64,000 nt of DNA from Isoetes taiwanensis. Taxonomy: Eukaryota; Streptophyta; Lycopodiopsida; Isoetales; Isoetaceae. The DNA lies in NCBI GenBank assembly GCA_021234155.1, contig JAJEKV010000037.1, forward strand, positions 2,100,171 to 2,164,170, in the 5' to 3' direction. Shown one piece after another: positions 18,012 through 60,165 of the stretch. Each line of letters starts with the position of its first letter. Positions within the stretch are counted from its first letter, which is position 1. The notes below the pieces were generated by a model. It searched no databases. It was not told where the DNA came from and was given only the letters and a program-made list of their open reading frames with translations. The translations under genes and the position numbers were made by a program.

Positions 18012-18402
18012 GTGATCATCACTTGAATATGGTCTACATAAGTTTCATATGGTCAAATTGTTTTACATCACATAAGTTTCTACATATGGTCACATATGTT
18101 TCTACATCACTTGCATATGGTCACATCGTTTCTTTTAACTTCATAAGTGTGTTATGGGTTTAGGGTTAATTAGAACACATTAGAACTATTTATGATTCCA
18201 TAGTTTTAAATGCCTATTGGAATTTGCCTTTTTGGCACTAGTTAGAGTATCTTATGACCAAATGCACTAGTTTAAGGCATCTTCAAATGCATCCATAGTT
18301 TAAGTGCCACAATGTGCCTTATATTGAAATCATGACTTGTCTACATTGTTTCTTTTAACTATTGATGCTTCCATAGTTTTAGATTCGAATGTAAAGAATA
18401 AA
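18012..18402. repeat. Left copy of a local repeat, interrupted by Helitrons
   Basis: The segment from GATCATCACTTGAATATGG to GATTCGAATGTAAAGAATAAA recurs, shortened inside, at 24862-24966. This copy is cut at 18402/18403 by the Helitron pair and resumes at 24825 with TTTATGTAGAACATTCTCTT. Confidence 0.85.
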
Positions 18403-18407
18403 TCTTA

Positions 18408-21400
18408 TCTTATATTATAATGTTTTAGTGCAAGTAATGGACCACGCCCTAGATCGGACGGCTGAGATTCGCTCTCTGTTTAACGGTCAAGATTGCCCCT
18501 TGAACATTAAAACTATCCTTTTTTTTTTCTCTCTTTTGCTCCCGCAAGCAGCAGAACGATGGCAGATTGGGCACCGCATTCTTCCACTCTCAAGCCCCTT
18601 CTCTGTTATAACCTTATTCGGCTTATGCCCCTTTTATGTGCAGATTATTGCGTGCATAACTTTGTTCCTCTTTGGCCATAGCCTAACCCTATCCGTCGGA
18701 GTTGAGGCCGCCTTCACTTACACTCTTGATGCAGCAGTAGCAGTTCAATAGAAAGAATGGAGGTCAAAGTGAATGTAAGGATGACACGAAGGCAACAGGG
18801 GATGGTATTGGATCAACTTTTGACTTTTTTCCCATGGCAAGGGAAGGGTCGCCATAGCTGTATATGCACAAACCTTTTTTAGTGTAAGGCTGCAGGTAGG
18901 TCTCACTGCCGGACACGCCACCATAGCCATCCTCTGCCCTAACTTCGCGGTTGGAGAATCACAAACAGCAGGCCAGGATTTGATGATCGATTTTATGGCT
19001 AAGATTTGGTATGATTTCTATTTACAATTCATATTTTGATCTATATTGTTTCCTTCATCAGATTTGTTTTGAGAAGCTGTCATAGTGGCTGCATCTCGGG
19101 ACAGTTCAAAGAATCATTGATGTTGTAACTACATTATCTTTTCCCTTTAAAATAATAGATCAATTTGGCTCCCACATCGTATATACGCTTTGTCCTCCTG
19201 CTATGTGATATGTTCCGGTAAAAAATTAGAGTTAGCTTGAATTTTATGTCTGCACAACCAGTTTATTCTTCTACATGCATTCATATAAGATCTTCTGATT
19301 CTATAAATTTTAGTCCAGAATTCCAAGTTTTGATCAATTTTACATGATTTTCTGATTTGGCTATGGCGGCCATCTCTTGATATTCCAGACCTGTCAATCC
19401 AATCTTGAATCCTGTTTAACAGAATGCAGTCTCTTCTTAGCAGTCACTGGCACAATCCTGGCTCATTGGAAGCTTATTCAACCTTCCATTAGAATGTCAT
19501 GGCAGGGTCATGCTTTGGGACAAAGATCATTCACATCAAGCTAAAGATAACGAGCTTATGTCTGCGGCATCCGCCACATGTATATTACGAAATCCACCAT
19601 AGGTATATTACGAAATATTTATTCTGATTATTTTGATTCAACAAACAATCTGTCGGTTTCAATAAAGGATCTGTCCATTTGCTTTGGATTTGGCAGGAAT
19701 GTTTCTGGAATGCTGGAATAGTTGGGAGCAGTGTATTTTCTTATTTCCTTGCACAGTGGTCACGAGACAAAGTTATAGTATGGCAGCAAACCATGATGTA
19801 CTCTCCTTCAATGCAGAGATCAATGAAAATCCAGTGCAGCAGATGCTGCAACTGAAAAGCAATGAGAAATAGTCATTGACTTTGGAATTCTGTAACTCTT
19901 GCTTATAGTGTGGTTAATGGGCTACTATGGATTCATGCTCCTCCTAGCCATTACCTTGCAGACTATAAGGACACCGATTATAAAGCAAGAAGACAATTGT
20001 CATTGACTTTGAACTTTGCAAATTCAAGTTACCGACATTTTGCAACTCTTACTCCCTTATAGTCTGCCACATCCAGGACATTATAGAGTAGCTTTACTTT
20101 CAACAATTGGATATTTTTCCCATGAGATATTGGGTTCCTCGACTATGTTCTGATGTTGAAAATATGTCATCTCGGTGCGCACCGGTTCCAGGAAATACCA
20201 GGAACCTTGAATGTAGACGAACTGGATAGAGATTTACGAGCTGGTCTTTTCTAAAACCAATGACCAATTCATATATTCATATGTACAAAATAGGACTGAT
20301 CATGAAAAAATTGCAGTTTAGCAAAGATGGGAGTTCGACATGCTTTACTGTATTATAATATGTATTACGGATTTTGTAGTGGCCAGGCAATAGCCATATT
20401 GTTATTTTATATCTGAGAACAGTGTTGTGTAAAACAACTTGAAAGATTCCTTCCTGTAATTTCTGATTCTTCCATTAATGGTTTCCATTTCCGTTATATA
20501 TATATAGCCCGTATTTAGAGTCAAGTTTGAGAGATTCAAAATATCAATAAAAGATAAAATGACTTGAATCGAAAGATTCAATAAGATGCTGCCATAAGGG
20601 TTTCCCTCCATCAATGAATCAGGAGTGAGCCGTGCCAGTAAGGCAAGGTGCATTCATAATGCTGAAGATGGGCGGTACCAGGGCCAAAAGAGACCAAATC
20701 ATGTACATGTCCATTGTGTAGACAAACATTAAAACAAGGAGTTGTTTGGTTGCCCTTTTTGAATTTTTTTCCACGAAATCTAAAACACATACGTAATGAT
20801 ATGAACAAGTAATATAATGATATGCAAGTGTAGTTGTCTCCATGCCCCATCCACATGACAACACCAACCAAAGCTATACCAAGTTAATAAAAAGTAAAGA
20901 CACCTCATCACAACTTCCTCTCTAAAGCAAATGACACCCATGGAAGTCACTCAAAAGAATATCCTTATAGCTCCCTATCAATATCCCACACTCTAAACCC
21001 GAATATATATGCTCACGAACATCTCATCTAATAGGATATTTTTTCTTGAAGTGGAAGTCGCAAGTGAAGAATTTAGAGGGTATTCTAATCATGTCATATC
21101 AAGTGATACAAATAGATAATTATTGTTATAGATTGCAGCATGGGGGGACATGCTCTTTACATGTACAATTGTAGATAGTTGCCAACATGACTTTGGCATA
21201 GCAAGTGGGGATATGCCCTGCACAACATGTACAATTGCAGATAGTTGTTAGGTCAGACAACAACATAACTTTGGCATAGCAAGTGGGGATATGCTCTGCA
21301 CAACGATGACGACGACGACGACGTATCTTTCTACCTTGATCTTCTAAGTGCAAATAGGATACATTACTTCAACATGGAGAATTATTGTCATTATGATTTT

Positions 21401-21655
21401 GTCAGATATTAAGAGACTGGAGCAGAAAGTGAGAGTCGTAGATAAGTTAAGGTAAGAACATCATGAACTAGACCTTTGTATGCTATGTTTTTAGGAACTG
21501 TTCTAGAATGATGCTCTACTAAGTGTTAAAGATGCTTATTGGTTAAAAAAGAAATATTGAGCTAAAACCAATCCGTTAGCATGGTCACATCATTCTCTTT
21601 AACATCATCTACACATTCTCAACTTATGCCCAGCAACGCTGGGCACCGTTACTAG
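18408..21655 (+). mobile_element. Inner non-autonomous Helitron (H1) nested in H2
   Basis: It starts TCTTATATTATAATG at 18408 and ends CTAG at 21652-21655, preceded by hairpin GCCCAGC-AAC-GCTGGGC at 21628-21644. It is inserted at the A/T between base 5 and base 6 of H2, and removing it restores the H2 start exactly. The interior (3.2 kb) differs from H2. It contains a duplicated segment with TTTGGCATAGCAAGTGGGG (about 21182-21225 and 21261-21304) and a (GAC)n run near 21306. The longest interior frame, 18428-18751, covers 107 codons with no domain. It needs helicase and Rep supplied elsewhere. Confidence 0.85.
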
Positions 21656-23276
21656 TATTATAATGTTTTAGTGCAAGTAATGGACCACGCCCTAGATCGG
21701 ACGGCAAAAAACGACCTAACCAGAATCTGCCAGAATCGGACGGCAAAAAACGAACCAGAATCTGCCAGAATCGGACGGCCTGCCAGAATCGGACGGCCAA
21801 AATTAGACTGTGGTTATTCAAATAAAAAGGGAATGTTTTTTATCCAATCGAGCTTACGATAGCAGATAAGCAGAGGTTACGATTGCAGCACCACCGCCCG
21901 CCGCCCGTTCTGATGCCTACCCTAGCTGCGGAGGCTGGATTGTTTTGCTTTTCTATGCTCAATCTCCAGCTTTTCTGTGCGGGTTGTACTGGAGGAACAG
22001 GGATCTAAGCATAGTGAGCTTAGTATACATCCAAATCTATGAGGCCAGAAACCTAGCTCTGGCAAAGACAGAAAGTTATATGACTCTTTGGATTTTAAGC
22101 TCTAAATCTTCTATTTTGTTACAAAGGATGCGGAATGCCGCCGCCCAAATGAAGGATTACCATACTGAAGATGCTGCATATTCTTAAAGCTTAGTTCTAC
22201 TCGGGATATTGGCAGGAAGCCTAATTGGAACATGAGCAGCATTGCTTCAATGGCTTCTTTAAGAAAGTCTAAAAAGAGCACCATAGAATCGCTCTGGAAT
22301 TGGGCCGTTGAACATGAGCTTCCTGATGTCGATAAGCCTTTGTTTAATCTTTTTCTATTCTGTCAAAGTTGCATCACTGTTTTGCTGTAATATGAGTTTT
22401 CAATATTCCTTCTTTTTACTTCAGGGGTGCTTTGGGCCACGTTTTTTACAGACTCAATCAGAAGATGGCATCAATCTTGGCTGGATATTGTAGGTATGCA
22501 TGTTATTATCTATCGTGTTGGATTGTTAAGCAATAACTAGAAGAACTATCGTCATGTGCAACTAAAAACTTGGTCTATCAAAGGCTGGGAAAGTAGAACA
22601 TTGTTTATCTGCCATTTGCTCTAGAAAGCTTGGTCTAGATAGATCAATTATACAACATTGTTCTTCGTGATGAGTGGAATGTACACATGTTAGACAAAAG
22701 CTTGGATTATTTAGAAGATACAATAAGCTTAATAATCCTTAATTTTTGTTTTCTGCCTACCCAGGTTGAAGGATTTCTGATGTGTGCTACTGAGCAACTG
22801 CAAGCACTGCAAGAAGAACGCAAGGTTTGCATCCTTGCACTTTCATTGAAATTCCATGATGCACATGATTAGTTGCAATTGTACAGGCCTATAAGGTGGT
22901 AAATCCAGGCCTAAACCAGGCTTCCAGGGTGCACAGTTGATATTTAAGCAGAACGACTTGCCATCATGGTGAAAGCCGTTGTTGTTGTTACACCATCCAA
23001 ATAATTAAGGACAAATATTTTGAAAGTTCGTTTTTGAGCCGTGTGAGCTCTTCTTCTTAGATCCCGAGTGTGTTTCCATGGCACAGTCCTACAAAATTTG
23101 TCGAGATAAGGTTCCACCAATCCAAAGGAAGATTCTATTCTTTTATTATTGGGTATTTCAACTCCTCCAACACAAGCACAACAGGTGTTCAGCACAGCTT
23201 CCTGTGCTTCAGAGCTGCATTGTAGAGACAAGTCTACGTTCACTATTTAGGAAATGATAAAAGCAGGTGCAGGTCT

Positions 23277-23448
23277 TAAATTTTTCTGAAAGTAGATATG
23301 AAGACAAAGCAGGCTGTGGTTTTCTTTTCTGCATTCAGTCAAGGTAAATACTTGCATTCAGCCATTAAATTTTTCTGAAAGTAGATATGAAGACAAAGCA
23401 GCCTGTGGTTTTCTTTTCTGCATTTAGTCAAGGTAAATACTTGCATTC
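23277..23448 (+). repeat. 86-bp tandem duplication inside H2
   Basis: Two adjacent copies of about 86 bases share CTGAAAGTAGATATGAAG and differ at only a few bases. The boundary is near 23363. A second recent duplication of about 46 bases lies at 24208-24299. Confidence 0.85.
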
Positions 23449-24824
23449 AGCCTTCTGCAAAATGACTTTCGTACGTTGTTAGCCTTCTGCAAAATGACTT
23501 TTTATAGGAAATGCTTTATAGAGTAAGAGACAACTTGATATTTCATCCCACCAATGAAGCTCTGCTATTCTGAAGGATATTATGAAGTGCTTTTCTAAAA
23601 AGGCAAGTCTGTTTTTTCACCAACTACAACATTTTGTGATCTTCCAATAGTGCAAAGTCCTTTTAATAAATAGAACAAGAATCTTTTTATATGCCAATAT
23701 AATGCATCAAGATTCAATTCCAAGCAAGTACATAATGAGGTAGCTTGATTGCTGGCTCCTAAGACTCAAAAGGCAATACATGCTCTACTCAGATCAGTAC
23801 TGACCCAGTACATGACAGGAAGGCAAACCAAAAGAGGGCCTACAATTTTCAATTCCTATAAAAAAATGTGATTATTCTTATTCTCAATTTTCCATGACTG
23901 CAAGTAGAAGTAAGCGTAAGCAGAAAAGGAGAGAGGCTAGATCTGCAAAAAATAATGTTCTCTTATTTCTTTAGATTTCTCGAGTTGTAAAAACAGGCAG
24001 AACTTAGTGTTGCTCCACTATTATGTGTTATCTCATCTGTTATTACTGTTATATGTTGGAAATGGAGCATAAAGAATGTCATGTTGCTAAGGGAAGCAAT
24101 TGAGGTACAAATATTTTAGTTGCAAGGGCAATTCGAATTGGCAGTTTCTTAGCTTTGCATGCTTTTGCATTTTATCATCTGTTACAAATAGCAAGTTAGG
24201 CATCTCTGAGCATGAACGAACTTGAATTATCCAATACATCTTTTGAATAATATTAGCATGAACGAACTTGAATTATCCAATACATCTTTTGAATAATATT
24301 ATAATGTGGTATTCAAGTATTATTTTTTCACGTTTTTATTCCACGTAGACTCACCTAGCACTTATCTTTGAATGTTGCTTTTAGGACAATTCGCGTAGTG
24401 GACCAAATACACATTGTTGTTAAGGATTATGTTTCATTTGCATCATGCGCAAAGTTGTAGAAGTTAAACAAGTGCTCATGTAAACTAGAGACTAAAAACT
24501 TTAATGGTACAAAAGACATGCTTCTCAATTGGCATGACAATTATCTCTAATATGGAAGCAATGTAATCTTATAATTTTGGAAATATAGCTTTGGCAAGTT
24601 AGATAGAAGCAATTCCACCTTCTAGAACAACAATTTTTGCATTCCTATATCTTTAGCATTTATTATTTTTATAGTTAATGAAGTCCAAAGGTTTTGAGAG
24701 CCCTTTTACATAACTTAAAGTCCTAGAGTACTAGAGTATGGGACAATTTCTCTATGGATTTGCCTAATTATATGATATTTATGACAAGGAGTTTGAGCCC
24801 AGCAACGCTGGGCACCGTTACTAG

Positions 24825-24990
24825 TTTATGTAGAACATTCTCTTGAACACTTGAACTATTGATCATCACTTGAATATGGTCTACATAAGTTTCATATGGT
24901 CAAATTGTTTTACATCACATAAGTTTGTACATCACATAAGTTTTAGATTCGAATGTAAAGAATAAATTTATGTAGAACATTCTCTTAACG
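24825..24990. repeat. End of left repeat copy and right repeat copy with empty Helitron site
   Basis: Bases 24825-24850 continue the copy broken at 18402. The second copy begins at about 24862 and reads without a break through GTAAAGAATAAATTTATG. Its junction 24966/24967 is the unoccupied version of the Helitron insertion point. Confidence 0.85.
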
Positions 24991-27688: not shown

Positions 27689-28433
27689 TCAAGAGTACTT
27701 AAACTTTTTCAGGATATCCATTGCTTGCTTAGATTCTTTATCCAACAGATTGGATAGTTTCTTCTCAAGCACGTAGTCTTTCACATTCTCAACTTCCAAC
27801 AGCCCCGCAAGGAAAGGTTTCAAATGCTCCAAGAGAAAATTACCTTCACGCGAGATGATGGTCGATAATCGCTTTGGGGTCACTCGTCGCGTCTTTGATA
27901 TTCTTTGTAGCGGTATAACATGTCATCAATCAAAACTGTGTTGTGTTCAGCCCATGTTCCCTTGTATCTAGAGTCGTGGTAGACCTTGTTGAGATCTTTC
28001 AACAGAATAGGCTTTTTGCTCACTTTAAATGATGTGTTTGTGCACACATCTGAGTGCCAAGTAAATAGCAACTTTTCTCTAAGACTCTTTGGAAAGGTAT
28101 GCTTCAGGATTAAATTTGCAGCCACACTCGTCAATGTTGTCCAGATAGCAACCCTGAAGTGCTCCACGCACCATTCCAAAAACTCCAATGCTCTTGGACG
28201 CAAAACCAATATCTTTGAGAGATTGAGATGCTTTGCCTCTGCATCATCTTGAAGGCTGCTGGGCAATAGTTCCCCTTTCTCAAACAGCTTGCACAAAACT
28301 CCTTCAAGCTCAAAAATTAAAAGCTTCATAGGTAGTTTAAGCCACTTATTGATTCGCAACATAGAGGGACTGCTATGTATGTCACCGCCACGTTTACTTT
28401 TCTTTATAGTAGCCACCTGCTCTCTTGTACTTC
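27689..28433 (-). pseudogene. FCP1/NIF-like HAD phosphatase domain with altered catalytic motif
   Basis: Counting from the ATG at 28416, the exon encodes LLIFELEGVLCKLF (residues 32-45), ILVLRPRALEFLEWC, then VAIWTTLTSVAANLIL (89-104), KKPILLKDL (134-142) and NTVLIDDMLYRY (159-170). These correspond in order to the HAD motifs of FCP1/SCP-type phosphatases. The usual catalytic DxD in motif I is replaced by ExE (ELEG), which should abolish the aspartyl-phosphate step. After residue 178 the frame stops. The usual C-terminal segment (LLEHLKPFLAGLLEVENVK, then DYVLEKKL) continues in another frame to 27689, so at least one shift lies near 27885. An intron, 28434-28498, joins it to an upstream exon (28499-28630). 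Confidence 0.65.
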
Positions 28434-34229: not shown

Positions 34230-36220
34230 TCTTATATTATAATGTTGTGTAATGGACCGCACCCTAAATTGGACGGTCGAGGATTTGATTGACCAATGGT
34301 GGAGATGATGTGTGCGTGTCTTCAACTAAAATTTCATCTTGACTATGGCTTCAATATGAAAGGGAAATGGAAAAAGGAAAAGGAAAAGGAAAAGGGAAAA
34401 GGCAAAGGGGAAAGGGAAACGGGGAAAGGGGAAAGGGGAAAGGGGAAAGGGGAAAGGGAAGGGAAAAAAGGAAAACGATGAAAGGGAAAAAGGAAACGAA
34501 AAAGGGAAGGAAAAGGAAAACGATGAAAGGGAAAAGGGAAAACTATGAAAGGGAAAAGGGAAAAGGAAAAGGAAAAGGGGAAGGGAAAAGGAAAAAAGAT
34601 GAAAGGGAAAAGAGAAAAACGGAAAAGGGAAAAGGGAAAAGGAAAAAGGGAAAAGGAAAAGGGGACGGAAAAGGAAAAACGATGAAAGGGAAAAGGAAAC
34701 GGAAAAGGGGAAGGGAAAAGGAAAAATGATGAAAGGGAAAAGGGAAAAGAGAAAAGGGAAAAGGAAAAGGGTAAGGGAAAAGGAAAAACGATGAAAGGGA
34801 AAAGAAAAAAGGGAAAAGGGAAAAGGAAAAGGAAAAACGATGAAAGGGAAAAGGGAAAAGGGAAAAGGAAAAAGGAAGAGGGAAGGGAAAAGGAAAAAGC
34901 GATGAAAGGGAAAAGGAAGAGGGAAGGGAAAGGAAAAAGCGATGAAAGGGAAAAGGGAAAAGGGAAAAGGGAAAGGGAAAAGGAAAAGGGAAAAGGGAAA
35001 AGGAAAAGGAATAAAGGAAAGGTAAAAGGAAAAAAGGAAAGAGAAGGAGAAAAGGAAAATGGAAAGATAAAAGAAAAATAGAAAAGGAATAGAATAGGCG
35101 GGGGAAAGGGAACGGAAAAAAGAGCACCACGAGAAGGGTAAGAAGTAAAGGTGAGAAAAGGAGAAAAAGGTAAGGGAAAATAAGAAAAGGTTGCAAAGTC
35201 TATGGGAAAAAGAAAAGTAAAAAGGAAAAGAGAGGGGGAAAAGGGAAAAAGAGAACTTGGGAAAAGGGAACGAGAAAAAGAGAAAAAATGAAAGGGCGGT
35301 AAAAAAAGGGAAAAGAGAAAGGGTGAAGAAAGAGAAAAAGGAAAGCAAAAAGAGCATCGAGAAAAAGGAAGAGGGAAAGGATGGAAAAATGAGGAAAAAG
35401 GTGGGGGGAAATTAGAATAGACAAAGGGTAGGGAGCAAGGAATAGGAAAAGAGGAAGGAGAAAAGGGCACGAGAAAAAAGGGAAGAGGGAAAGGGTGAGG
35501 AAATAGAAGAAAGAAAGGGAAAAAGAGTATGGGAAAGGGAAAAGAAAAAAGAAACAAGAAAGGAGAAAGTGGAAAGGGGAAAAAGGGGAAGAAGATGGGG
35601 AAAGAAGGAAAAAGGGTACATAAAAAAAGTTGAGAAAAGGGAATGGAAAGAGGCATATGAAAAGCGAAAGGGAACGGGAAAGGGAAAATGTAAAGGAAGG
35701 GGAAAGAGAAAGGAAAGGGAAAAAGGGAACATCGCAAAGCAAAAGGGTGGGGAAAGTATGAAAAGGGAATGGAAAGTTGAAAGGAAAAGGGAAGCGGAAA
35801 AAGGAGAAGGGAAAGCAAAAAGAGCATGAGGAAAAGAGGAGAGAGAAATGGGAAAAGAGATGGGGAAAAGGGCACGTGATCAAGAGGAAGAGGGTGGGGA
35901 AAGGAAGAAAAGGGAACATGAAAAGGTAAGCAAAAGAGAACGAAAAAAATGCATGAGAAACGGGAAAGAGAAAAGGAAAAGGAAAAGGAAGAGGAAGGGG
36001 AAAAGGAAAGGGAAAGAGAGTAGTGGAAAAATAGGAAGAGCGGGGAAAGATAAAAAGGAAGGGAAAAAGCTGATAAGAAAAAGAGAAAGAAAAAAAGGGA
36101 AAGGGGAAAGGGAAGGCAAAGGGAGGGAGAACGGGGTTAGAAAAAAAAAAGGGAGAATAAAAAAAGAAAGAAATTAAAGGTTCCTAATTTATGCCCAGCA
36201 AGGCTGGGTACCATTACTAG
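34230..36220 (+). mobile_element. Non-autonomous Helitron (H3) carrying a purine-only tract
   Basis: It starts TCTTATATTATAATG after host A (34229) and shares the diverged block TAATGGACCGCACCCTAAAT with H1 and H2. It ends with hairpin GCCCAGC-AAG-GCTGGGT (36193-36209), then ACCATTACTAG at 36210-36220 before host T. Apart from about 130 bases at the left and 45 at the right, the interior is one purine-rich tract. No protein is encoded. Confidence 0.9.
34360..36175 (+). repeat. 1.8-kb homopurine tract, (GGGAAAAGG)n-like
   Basis: The plus strand is almost wholly A and G, in GGGAAAA, GGAAAA and GGGGAAA words, with rare C or T. In the first 600 bases an AACGATGAAAGGG-type marker recurs about every 45-65 bases (for example 34478, 34531, 34681, 34790, 34839), giving a loose higher-order unit. 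Toward the right the pattern degrades. Long minus-strand frames (up to 510 codons of Phe, Pro, Ser and Leu) exist only because purine codon complements contain few stops. Runs of G3-4 separated by three or four A fit quadruplex rules, and the mirror-like purine strand could form triplex DNA. Confidence 0.95.
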
Positions 36221-57199: not shown

Positions 57200-60165
57200 T
57201 CAGAGGGAACTGATATAAGCTGATTCCCCCTCGTTTATGTTGTTGAATTGAAGATGTGGAACACTGGTTATGCCTTCCAACATCAACCTCACATCACGCA
57301 TTCTTGGCCTTATACTAGCTGCTGTGTTGGTGCACAATATTGCTATACTAGCAATTACCATTGCTTCATCCCTTGAATACATGTCTCCCAATCGCTTATC
57401 CATCAACGCCATCAGATTAGACGGTCCAAGCTCATGTGCCCAATCTACCAAAAATGCCGCCTTCTCTAAATCTATTACACGCCTGCCGCTCAGCAGCTGC
57501 AATAATACTACCCCGTAGCTGTAAACATCTACTTTCTCTGATAGCTGATTTTTTGTAGCATATTCTGATTCAATGCATTAGATTTAGCATCTTTCATTTT
57601 GTGGAGAAGAAAACATAAAAATTAAACACGATGCATACCTGGTGACAGATAGCCTACCGTACCCTGAAGCCTGGAAGCTGTGACATGGGATTTACGGTCA
57701 TCGTATAATCTTGCAAGACCAAAGTCAGTTATAAAAGGATTAAATTTTTCATCCAGAAGAATGTTGTGAGGTTTTACATCACAATGAATAATATGAATCT
57801 CTGACTCATCATGCAGATATGCAAGTCCACGTGCAGTTCCAAGTGCAATTTTGTATCTTAGCTCCCAACTTAACACATGGTTTTCATCCTCCAAAAAGAG
57901 CAGTTTGTCAAGGCTCCCATTGGGCATGTACTGAGATACCAACAAGAATCTACGCACTGATTTGTGAGAGTAAGCACTATACCCTAGAATGCCTGCAAGA
58001 TTTTGATGGCGTATCATGCTAATAAGTTGAATTTCCTTTTTAAACTCTTCTTCTTGCCTTGCATTTCTATCTGGGTGTAGACGTTTGATGGCAATTGTGC
58101 AACCGTTTGGAAGTACACCTTTATAGACTGATCCAAACGCACCTTCTCCTATTTTGGATAATTTGCTGAAATTATTCGTGGCCTTGCAAAGGGCGCCATA
58201 CTTATACTCCATTACTCCAATGTTTTCCTTGTGCTCATGCTCCAAAGCATGCCTCTTTTTCTTCCTTAACCACAAGAGTAACAATCCTACTACTATAATA
58301 AGGATCACAAATGCTGCAATAGAGCAACTCATAATTACTGCTTTGTGTTTGGAGTTGTCTAGCACTGCTGCGGTTCCTGAAGTCTTTGCTAACACCGCGG
58401 ATAAAGCTGATATCATGGGGCCTCCCCGGCCAGCTGAATCTGCACCAGCTCCACTGGTCTTGCCATCATAAATTAGTTGAACAGAAAGGATGCCACTTGT
58501 AACTTCAGTCTCATTGTGGATGATGTATTGCTTGTTTTTTTTTACCAAATCGTATACATCCAAATCCTTTCTTATCAGGCTTCCTTGGATATAGACATCA
58601 AACACTCTATATCCAGTTTGATCAAATTCTATTTCTGCAAAGTAAAGCGTGACATTGTATTTTCCTGGCTGTAACTGAATTCCATGATAGGCTAAATAGT
58701 CTGGTGCTGAACGCATGGATCTGTATATTTCTACAAGATCTGTAAGGTCAGGATTACTAACATTTTTGGAATTGGAATTGCCTGATGATATCTCTACAGC
58801 CCATAAACCACTACTATCATCATAATGGAACCCAAATCCATATTCCCCCAAATCAGGTTGGAACTGTAAGTTCTCAAACGTTATATTACCCCCTCCTGCA
58901 TTGATTGCAAAACCTTGAAGGCTACCGGGTACAGAGGGAGAACAGTGATCCAATGATGTAGGTCTTGAAATGTCGCAGTTAAATGTCTTGAGTCTACCAT
59001 TAGTAAAATAATTGAATGCATAATTTATAGGTGTTTCGCCCAAGTATGCCTTAAACTCGGCCACAGAACCGTTGAGCGAATTGTGAGAGAGATCTAGCTT
59101 CTGAAGGCTGGACATGGAAGAGAAGCTTCTATCTGGGACTTCTCCTGTAAGATTATTGTGGTCTAGATACAGGATTTGCAAAGAACTTCCATCAAATTTC
59201 TGCGGAATGCTTCCTGATATCTGGTTGAATCCTAATCTTAAATCCTGAAGAGAATTGGATATGGAGGATGGAGAACCAGTGAAACTGTTTTTTGTCAAAT
59301 GTGCTGCAGTTAAGCTAGTTAAACCCTGCAGAGTTTTGAAAATGGTTCCAGAGAACTGATTGTAAGACAGATCTAAGTAATTAAGATTATGCAAGTCTTG
59401 GAGAAAAGAAGTCTCACCAGAAAATGAATTTCCTTGAAGGAGAAGCTTGATCAAACCGATGCAATCACCAAGCTGAGATGGAATGGTACCATTTAAGTGA
59501 TTATGGAAGGCATAAAAATATTGGAGATTGGTAAGCTGTCCTATAGAAGACGGAATGGGCCCTGTCAACTGATTGTTGTCCACATACAATTCTTTCAAAT
59601 TGGTAAGAGTGCCCAATCCCTCTGGAAGGGAACCGTTAAAGCTATTAGTACCAAGCTCCAGGATTGTGAGAAGAGTAAGCTGTCCTATAGAAGACGGAAT
59701 GGGCCCTGTCAACTGATTGCTGTCCACATAGATTTCTTTCAAATTGGTAAGATTGCCCAATCCCTCTGGAAGGGAACCGTTAAAGCTATTAAGACGAAGG
59801 TTCACATATGTGAGCAGAGTAAGGTTACCTAAACCTCGAGGAATTGGGCCTACAAGGTTATTATAACCAAGGTCGAGACTTGTGAGATTTGAAAGGGAGC
59901 CAAGGGCTTCAGGGACAATTCCTGATAATCCGTTCCCATGAAAACTGAGGTTAGTGACGGTAGTGCTTGTGGAGTCACATGTAATAGCTGCAGAGTTACA
60001 AGGATCAGAGTAAAGGGCAGAATCAGTGTAGTTAAGGGCCTTTCCAATTTGCTCAAGAGCGGTCATTTCGATATGGCTGATTGTGGCAAGGGAATGGGAA
60101 GCAAAGAGCAGGAGCAAAGGCAAACAGAGCCTGTGGATATGGAGGATGACGTTCGCCATAGCCAC
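57200..60165 (-). CDS. LRR-malectin receptor-like kinase, two exons, 963 residues
   Basis: Exon 1 is 60165-57639 and exon 2 is 57564-57200. The 74-base intron (57638-57565) is GT-AG and splits the SPEY codon for Glu; splicing keeps one frame. The protein has a signal peptide (1-29), plant leucine-rich repeats (about 68-370), a malectin-like domain (about 416-590, with INAGGGNITF and YNVTLYFAEIEF), a membrane helix (609-633) followed by RKKKRH, and a kinase domain: GEGAFG (673), K694, E711, D796, DFG (814-816). The order matches plant LRR-VIII-type receptor kinases. The catalytic loop is HCD rather than HRD (C795), a non-RD kinase, a state frequent in immune receptors. The product should sit in the plasma membrane and signal to cytosolic targets; the ligand is unknown. 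It ends ESAYISSL. Confidence 0.93.
59503..59790 (-). repeat. 144-bp tandem duplication inside the LRR coding region
   Basis: Residues 126-173 and 174-221 of the receptor kinase are near-identical 48-residue blocks, each two repeats long (NSFNGSLPEGLG, then NQLTGPIPSSIGQLT). The coding DNA matches almost base for base, so the duplication is recent. Confidence 0.95.

Follow-up and report, generated by a model that had tools for sequence, protein, structure and literature searches.

Evidence that one Helitron lies at base 5 of another's start in Isoetes taiwanensis, a recurrent landing spot in this genome

Helitrons normally integrate between A and T (A/T, the slash marking the insertion point) without target duplication, and their choice of targets is poorly known. 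Nested Helitrons, self-insertion into 5′ ends and derivatives with multiple termini have already been published, as far as the available text of two reports goes (PMC3288121; PMC5148889). For maize, the text available describes a Helitron within a Helitron and preferential insertion of Helitrons near other Helitrons, and the proposal there is that a nested intermediate begins transposition at the inner 5′ end and runs on past several 3′ ends (PMC3288121). For the FoHelis of Fusarium, the corresponding extract proposes a nick at the leftmost 5′ end and a stop at the first 3′ end, leading to elements with two 5′ termini (PMC5148889). A search confined to one open library returned no account of Helitrons that favor a relative's own start at the level of single bases and in the same orientation.

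Here we analyzed a 64,000-nucleotide stretch of Isoetes taiwanensis DNA (contig JAJEKV010000037.1; hereafter the window) together with the genome assembly (1.66 Gb, 1110 contigs). The original prediction had placed one Helitron five bases inside the start of another, and all coordinates of this pair, including the TCTTA, the CTAG ends and the borders, were confirmed base for base. On the forward strand, TCTTA at 18403–18407 is followed by TCTTATATTATAATG at 18408–18422, the start of the inner Helitron H1 (18408–21655, 3248 bp, TC...CTAG). The CTAG end of H1 at 21655 is directly followed by TATTATAATG, with which the remainder of the outer Helitron H2 begins (21656–24824, 3169 bp, forward strand, CTAG end at 24824). 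The TCTTA represents the first five bases of H2, severed from that remainder by H1, which lies between bases 5 and 6; without H1, the outer element measures 3174 bp (18403–18407 plus 21656–24824). The bases next to H1 are A (18407) and T (21656), giving A/T at both borders, and those next to H2 are A (18402) and T (24825). Joining TCTTA to position 21656 restores 55 nt identical to the start of H1. Since the identity of H1 and H2 is restricted to these first 55 nt and the last 28 nt, with no further shared sequence detected by BLASTN, the two are, by this comparison, two subfamilies with common ends. The independent Helitron with the same 15-nt start that had been proposed at 34230 is also present (34230–36220, forward strand) and has a similar 3′ end. 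Its interior (34326–36190) contains about 1.9 kb of a purine-rich GGGAAA-like repeat with a spurious 510-aa ORF, and 3′ ends like its own were seen on elements in L060, L061 and L064. Elsewhere in the window, the reverse strand carries an 847-aa ORF of the plant-type receptor kinase kind with LRR, malectin and protein kinase domains, which stops within the kinase domain (57622–60165), and an ORF matching the NIF phosphatase family (27880–28416; Pfam PF03031).

Both H1 and H2 show the ends of canonical (Helitron1) elements, with TC at the 5′ end (TCTTATATTATAATG) and CTRR, here CTAG, at the 3′ end. The hairpin GCCCAGC-AAC-GCTGGGC, with a 7-bp stem and a 3-nt loop, is found 11 nt ahead of the end, as expected of canonical Helitrons; by its fold it occupies 21628–21644 in H1, and by sequence identity and fold the same hairpin occupies 24797–24813 in H2, both on the forward strand. 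At L117, L120, L125, L135, L136 and L063 the hairpin arm reads approximately GCCAAAGAACG instead of GCCCAGCAACG, which either marks a subfamily or stems from a systematic error in sequencing. The target is likewise the canonical one, A/T without target site duplication, and A precedes all 19 readable single starts. No terminal inverted repeats were found when the first 15 nt were set side by side with the reverse complement of the last 15 nt, and a scan for inverted repeats of at least 25 nt found none at the element ends. No ORF of at least 130 aa was detected in H1 or H2, and H2 appears to be a Helitron without a transposase gene of its own; as for other canonical Helitrons of this kind, an autonomous relative would provide the RepHel transposase.

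When the flanks across the whole insert were joined (28 + 20 nt), they matched exactly one place in the window, at 24939–24986 (forward strand), where a 48-nt empty copy of the insertion site lies within a host tandem duplicate. TCTTA is absent from this empty site. Therefore, the entire interval 18403–24824 is insert and TCTTA is not host DNA, and the exact match also shows that it entered at an A/T with no duplication of the target. The empty site derives from a tandem duplication of host DNA around the insertion (18013–18403 and 24860–24968).

Relatives of H1 were collected with the 500 nt just inside its start, which gave 41 rows besides the window, of which 17 (16 starts and C160) were fetched; loci with the same flank were counted once. 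The results revealed a single start at 10 independent insertion sites, exact at seven (L076, L077, L079, L082, L087, L090 and C160), with one change at two (L078 and L089) and degenerate at one (L088). The start was unreadable in L094 and in L093, the latter an H1 relative from a separate search for copies of the pair. C160 is identical to H1 over the 500 nt just inside the start; the double start suggested by its BLAST boundary was ruled out on reading the edge, where C160 proved to have a single start and to sit in another Helitron, at base 10. For H2, two of the 25 rows besides the window were fetched and one was readable: the relative on C1106 (L091) begins with an intact TCTTATATTATAATG, whereas the start of L092 was unreadable. 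The single starts of the relatives, together with the exact empty site, therefore indicate two elements and a nesting, with H2 the earlier and H1 the later arrival at an A/T at base 5, as had been predicted. H2 first inserted at a host A/T, and H1, of a different subfamily, later entered H2 at the A/T that separates base 5 from base 6, oriented as H2 is.

Genome-wide, the exact base-5 junction RTTACTAG/TATTATAATG (an 18-nt pattern) occurs 41 times, compared with 0 for the reversed control. If the 3314 insertions were random over A/T sites, about 0.04 such junctions would be expected (with the A/T density scaled from the window and one given base in each of 3314 starts), and even a fivefold larger number of both elements and targets would raise the expectation to only about 1, against the 41 observed. 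Therefore, base 5 of relatives' starts is a recurrent landing spot across the genome. The independent events number fewer than 41, as some junction loci are copies of each other (L024/L027 and L021/L022). The upstream side was read for 20 of the 41 junctions, window included. Six of these present a clean succession of TCTTA, one element and TATTATAATG. In the window and in locus A on contig C1000, both elements have both ends intact and all four ends were read; in L143, L144, L146 and L147 three ends were read, the far end of H2 lying outside the reading. No two of the five clean cases outside the window match on both junction sides. An outer unit is present in variant form at L057, L058 and L065 and in degenerate form at L055, L059 and L066, while at L056, L060, L063 and L064 (4/20) no outer unit stands before H1. 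The junction of L061 lies behind another Helitron, and the upstream side is ambiguous at L062 and L148. L145 (C1009:157270-161300) has a double start and an inner element in which two CTAG 3′ ends, separated by about 0.7 kb, precede the base-5 junction, a layout that read-through of the first 3′ end would leave. The junctions with a degenerate outer unit or none, L061, L062, L148 and L145 weigh against the explanation by nesting at base 5. The double start and the junction at C319:130435 and C319:122549 were considered as a nested pair and rejected: neither a 3′ end nor a junction was found over 3.2 kb downstream of the double start, and the 6 kb upstream of the junction contain no start.

The 15-nt start itself has 3314 copies in the genome versus 22 for its reversed control, and the 20-nt double start TCTTATCTTATATTATAATG was found at 202 places versus 0. 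TCTTA precedes 6% of the starts (202/3314), far above the 41 exact junctions. From 100 listed double starts of the 202, the border was read in 20, and 14, picked for having no listed junction nearby, were followed for 6 kb downstream each. The base before the outer TCTTA was A in 16 of the 20 borders and T in two, and in two the CTAG of another Helitron stood there; the sub-terminal sequences came from many subfamilies, and three borders carried TCTTA three times. Six of the 14 elements followed end with CTAG against host DNA, at a host A, and are native there. Two more, which sit in another Helitron at its base 10, carry the double start natively, one is nested in a variant H2 start (L050), and one has a TCTTA that is probably host (L053); for the other four, no 3′ end was found within 6 kb downstream. 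L043 and L045 represent one double-start element at two sites with different flanks (91% over 3707 bp), and therefore the 5-nt longer start transposes and is heritable. Because native double starts occur in other subfamilies, TCTTATCTTATATTATAATG alone is weak evidence of nesting, whereas the CTAG/TATTATAATG junction is strong evidence. The possibility voiced with the original prediction, that TCTTATCTTATATTATAATG is simply the native start of one family, thus holds for other subfamilies (6/14 followed; L043/L045) but not for the window pair. The 19 single starts read (L107 left out) hold no listed double start and are not a control for the TCTTA rate. L095 (C919:23579549-23579594) carries two copies of the double start, spaced 26 nt apart.

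Other bases of the start are also occupied. Base-10 double starts number 14 in the genome, and perfect base-0 tandems, CTAG/TCTTATATTATAATG, number 98. In each of the 20 base-0 tandems read, the first element is represented by its 3′ end and the second by its 5′ start, from which it does not follow that they belong to different subfamilies; because circle concatemers also fit, base-0 tandems were left out of the targeting count. In three pairs of these loci (L122/L125, L123/L135 and L127/L132) the 5′ starts match by 91–98% while the preceding 3′ ends do not match; therefore, not all six loci are concatemers of one element. As for orientation, base 5 showed one exact opposite case (with a stricter, 25-nt pattern) versus the 41 same-orientation junctions (18-nt pattern). 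A short opposite pattern for the 3′ side gave 48 matches versus 6 in the control, and four of the nine read carry the A expected of a true border, which is close to chance; some of these matches may be real. The opposite base-0 pattern, a 30-nt palindrome, was not found in the genome, and this count of zero may reflect palindrome instability. Helitrons in opposite orientation were seen within another's 5′ region at base 18 in L121 and L133 and further inside in L003. The same-orientation bias at base 5 looks strong but not absolute.

It is improbable that the window pair came already nested, as one composite whose movement began at the outer TC or at that of H1, passed H1's CTAG and stopped at H2's CTAG. 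In the available text, Helraiser is documented to read through a 3′ end (PMC4778049) and nested maize Helitrons are proposed to do so (PMC3288121), and L060, L063 and L064 open with H1 itself next to a host A, which is what composite movement would leave. However, no second copy of the window pair was found among the best 40 of 2446 candidates scored, and the candidate on C1000 was rejected on phylogeny. There, locus B (C1000:669 kb) matches locus A with 95% identity over 6731 bp, exactly from H1's TC to H2's CTAG, in new flanks and with the same H1-H2 layout, without the outer TCTTA. It was rejected as a transposed copy of A's nested pair. The H2 parts of the two loci group together (as sisters, with 17 shared sites) and are older, being about twice as diverged (5–6%) as the H1 parts (2.4%), and the H1 parts are not sisters, that of A grouping with a solo H1 (23:0 sites, with 0 joining A to B); C38 and C457, which align well only at the 3′ end, were left out of the final comparison of H1 sister sites. 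Most simply, two sister H2 copies on C1000 would have been struck independently at base 5 by one H1 family, and such independent insertions would themselves speak for a hotspot. Conversion of the H1 of locus A may be an alternative, and the outer TCTTA may be missing from locus B through slippage. The suggestion that the pair could move as a unit was thus not borne out, and of the further pairs that the original prediction had proposed to look for at other loci, base-5 nesting was found (locus A, L143, L144, L146 and L147) but not a second copy of the window pair among those 40 candidates.

Nor do explanations that dispense with nesting fare better. H1 might natively have the long start TCTTATCTTATATTATAATG and stand directly before an H2 whose start is natively 5 nt short, and native double starts in other subfamilies (6/14 followed; L043/L045) lend this some plausibility; it would nevertheless require a chance meeting of two unusual ends, and with single starts in H1 relatives at 10 independent sites, C160 among them, and a full start in the H2 relative L091, we consider it very improbable. 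Slippage or conversion in the AT-rich start could have created the TCTTA repeat once the element was in place: duplicates that share a flank hold one or two TCTTA units (L056 and L016), and a run of ATT repeats lengthens the start of L137 (C1000:413 kb), a solo H1 relative of the C1000 pair, which shows that the terminus is prone to slippage. Such a process may be the source of the four junctions without an outer unit, but it leaves unexplained a CTAG/TATTATAATG junction that lacks TCTTA at 21656 while TCTTA stands at the outer border, and its likelihood for the window pair is accordingly slight. Circles do give head-to-tail Helitron junctions according to the Helraiser report, as far as its text was available (PMC4778049). 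A rolling-circle concatemer, in which the pair would be two units of one circle with 5 nt lost, is nonetheless refuted for the window pair and carries next to no weight, given that H1 and H2 share no more than 55 + 28 terminal nt and that the TCTTA "missing" from H2 is present at the outer border rather than lost.

Taken together, nesting of H1 at base 5 of H2, with a presumed favored AT-rich target and presumed by-products bearing a 5-nt-extended start, is very probably the correct explanation. The start TCTTATATTATAATG offers A/T points at bases 0, 5, 7 and 10, each followed downstream by almost pure A+T, and over 15 nt A+T makes up 76% of the 3′ flanks compared with 65% of the 5′ flanks (p = 0.001, with n = 26 and 36; Helitron sequence accounts for about four of the 3′ rows). 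An AT-rich side downstream of the nick would make element starts a favored target and would account for the same orientation. The resulting pair has a second TC start 5 nt after the first and a CTAG at the end of each element, and transposition from the outer TC that stops at H1's CTAG would give elements whose start is longer by 5 nt. Elements of this type occur at other places in the genome and have transposed there. A broader proposal, which we put forward tentatively and consider rather doubtful, is that the 5′ end of the superfamily serves as an oriented target: a transposase that nicks A/TC would also nick resident starts at base 5 or 10 (perhaps 0), incoming elements would join in the same orientation, rows of Helitrons would grow, and 5-nt extended starts would leave as heritable scars of nesting. 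Starts that relatives strike at set A/T bases, and at base 5 mostly in the orientation of the resident element, amount to natural single-base target data. They are also a concrete source of elements carrying additional 5′ ends, a complication for the annotation of Helitrons.

The original observation is correct and belongs to a known kind of event, and the genome-wide pattern is stronger than could be seen from the window alone. Like H1 and H2, the nested maize Helitrons have one element inside another and multiple termini; the available text of that study does not tie the insertion point to a base of the 5′ end and gives no count of orientations, whereas here the point is base 5 and orientations were counted (PMC3288121). 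The Helraiser/Helibat system, in the part of its report at hand, shares with the Isoetes elements the TC...CTRR ends, the A/T target and the 3′ hairpin terminator, and offers further likenesses in its head-to-tail circles, the AT-rich region near the 5′ cleavage site and the bypass of the 3′ end, but it is an experimental bat element, unlike the Isoetes pair (PMC4778049). The FoHelis, as the available text of their report has it, resemble H1 and H2 in self-insertion into the 5′ end of a relative; they are Helitron2-like with other ends and targets, and their repeated starts are 73 and 85 nt, compared with 5 nt here (PMC5148889).
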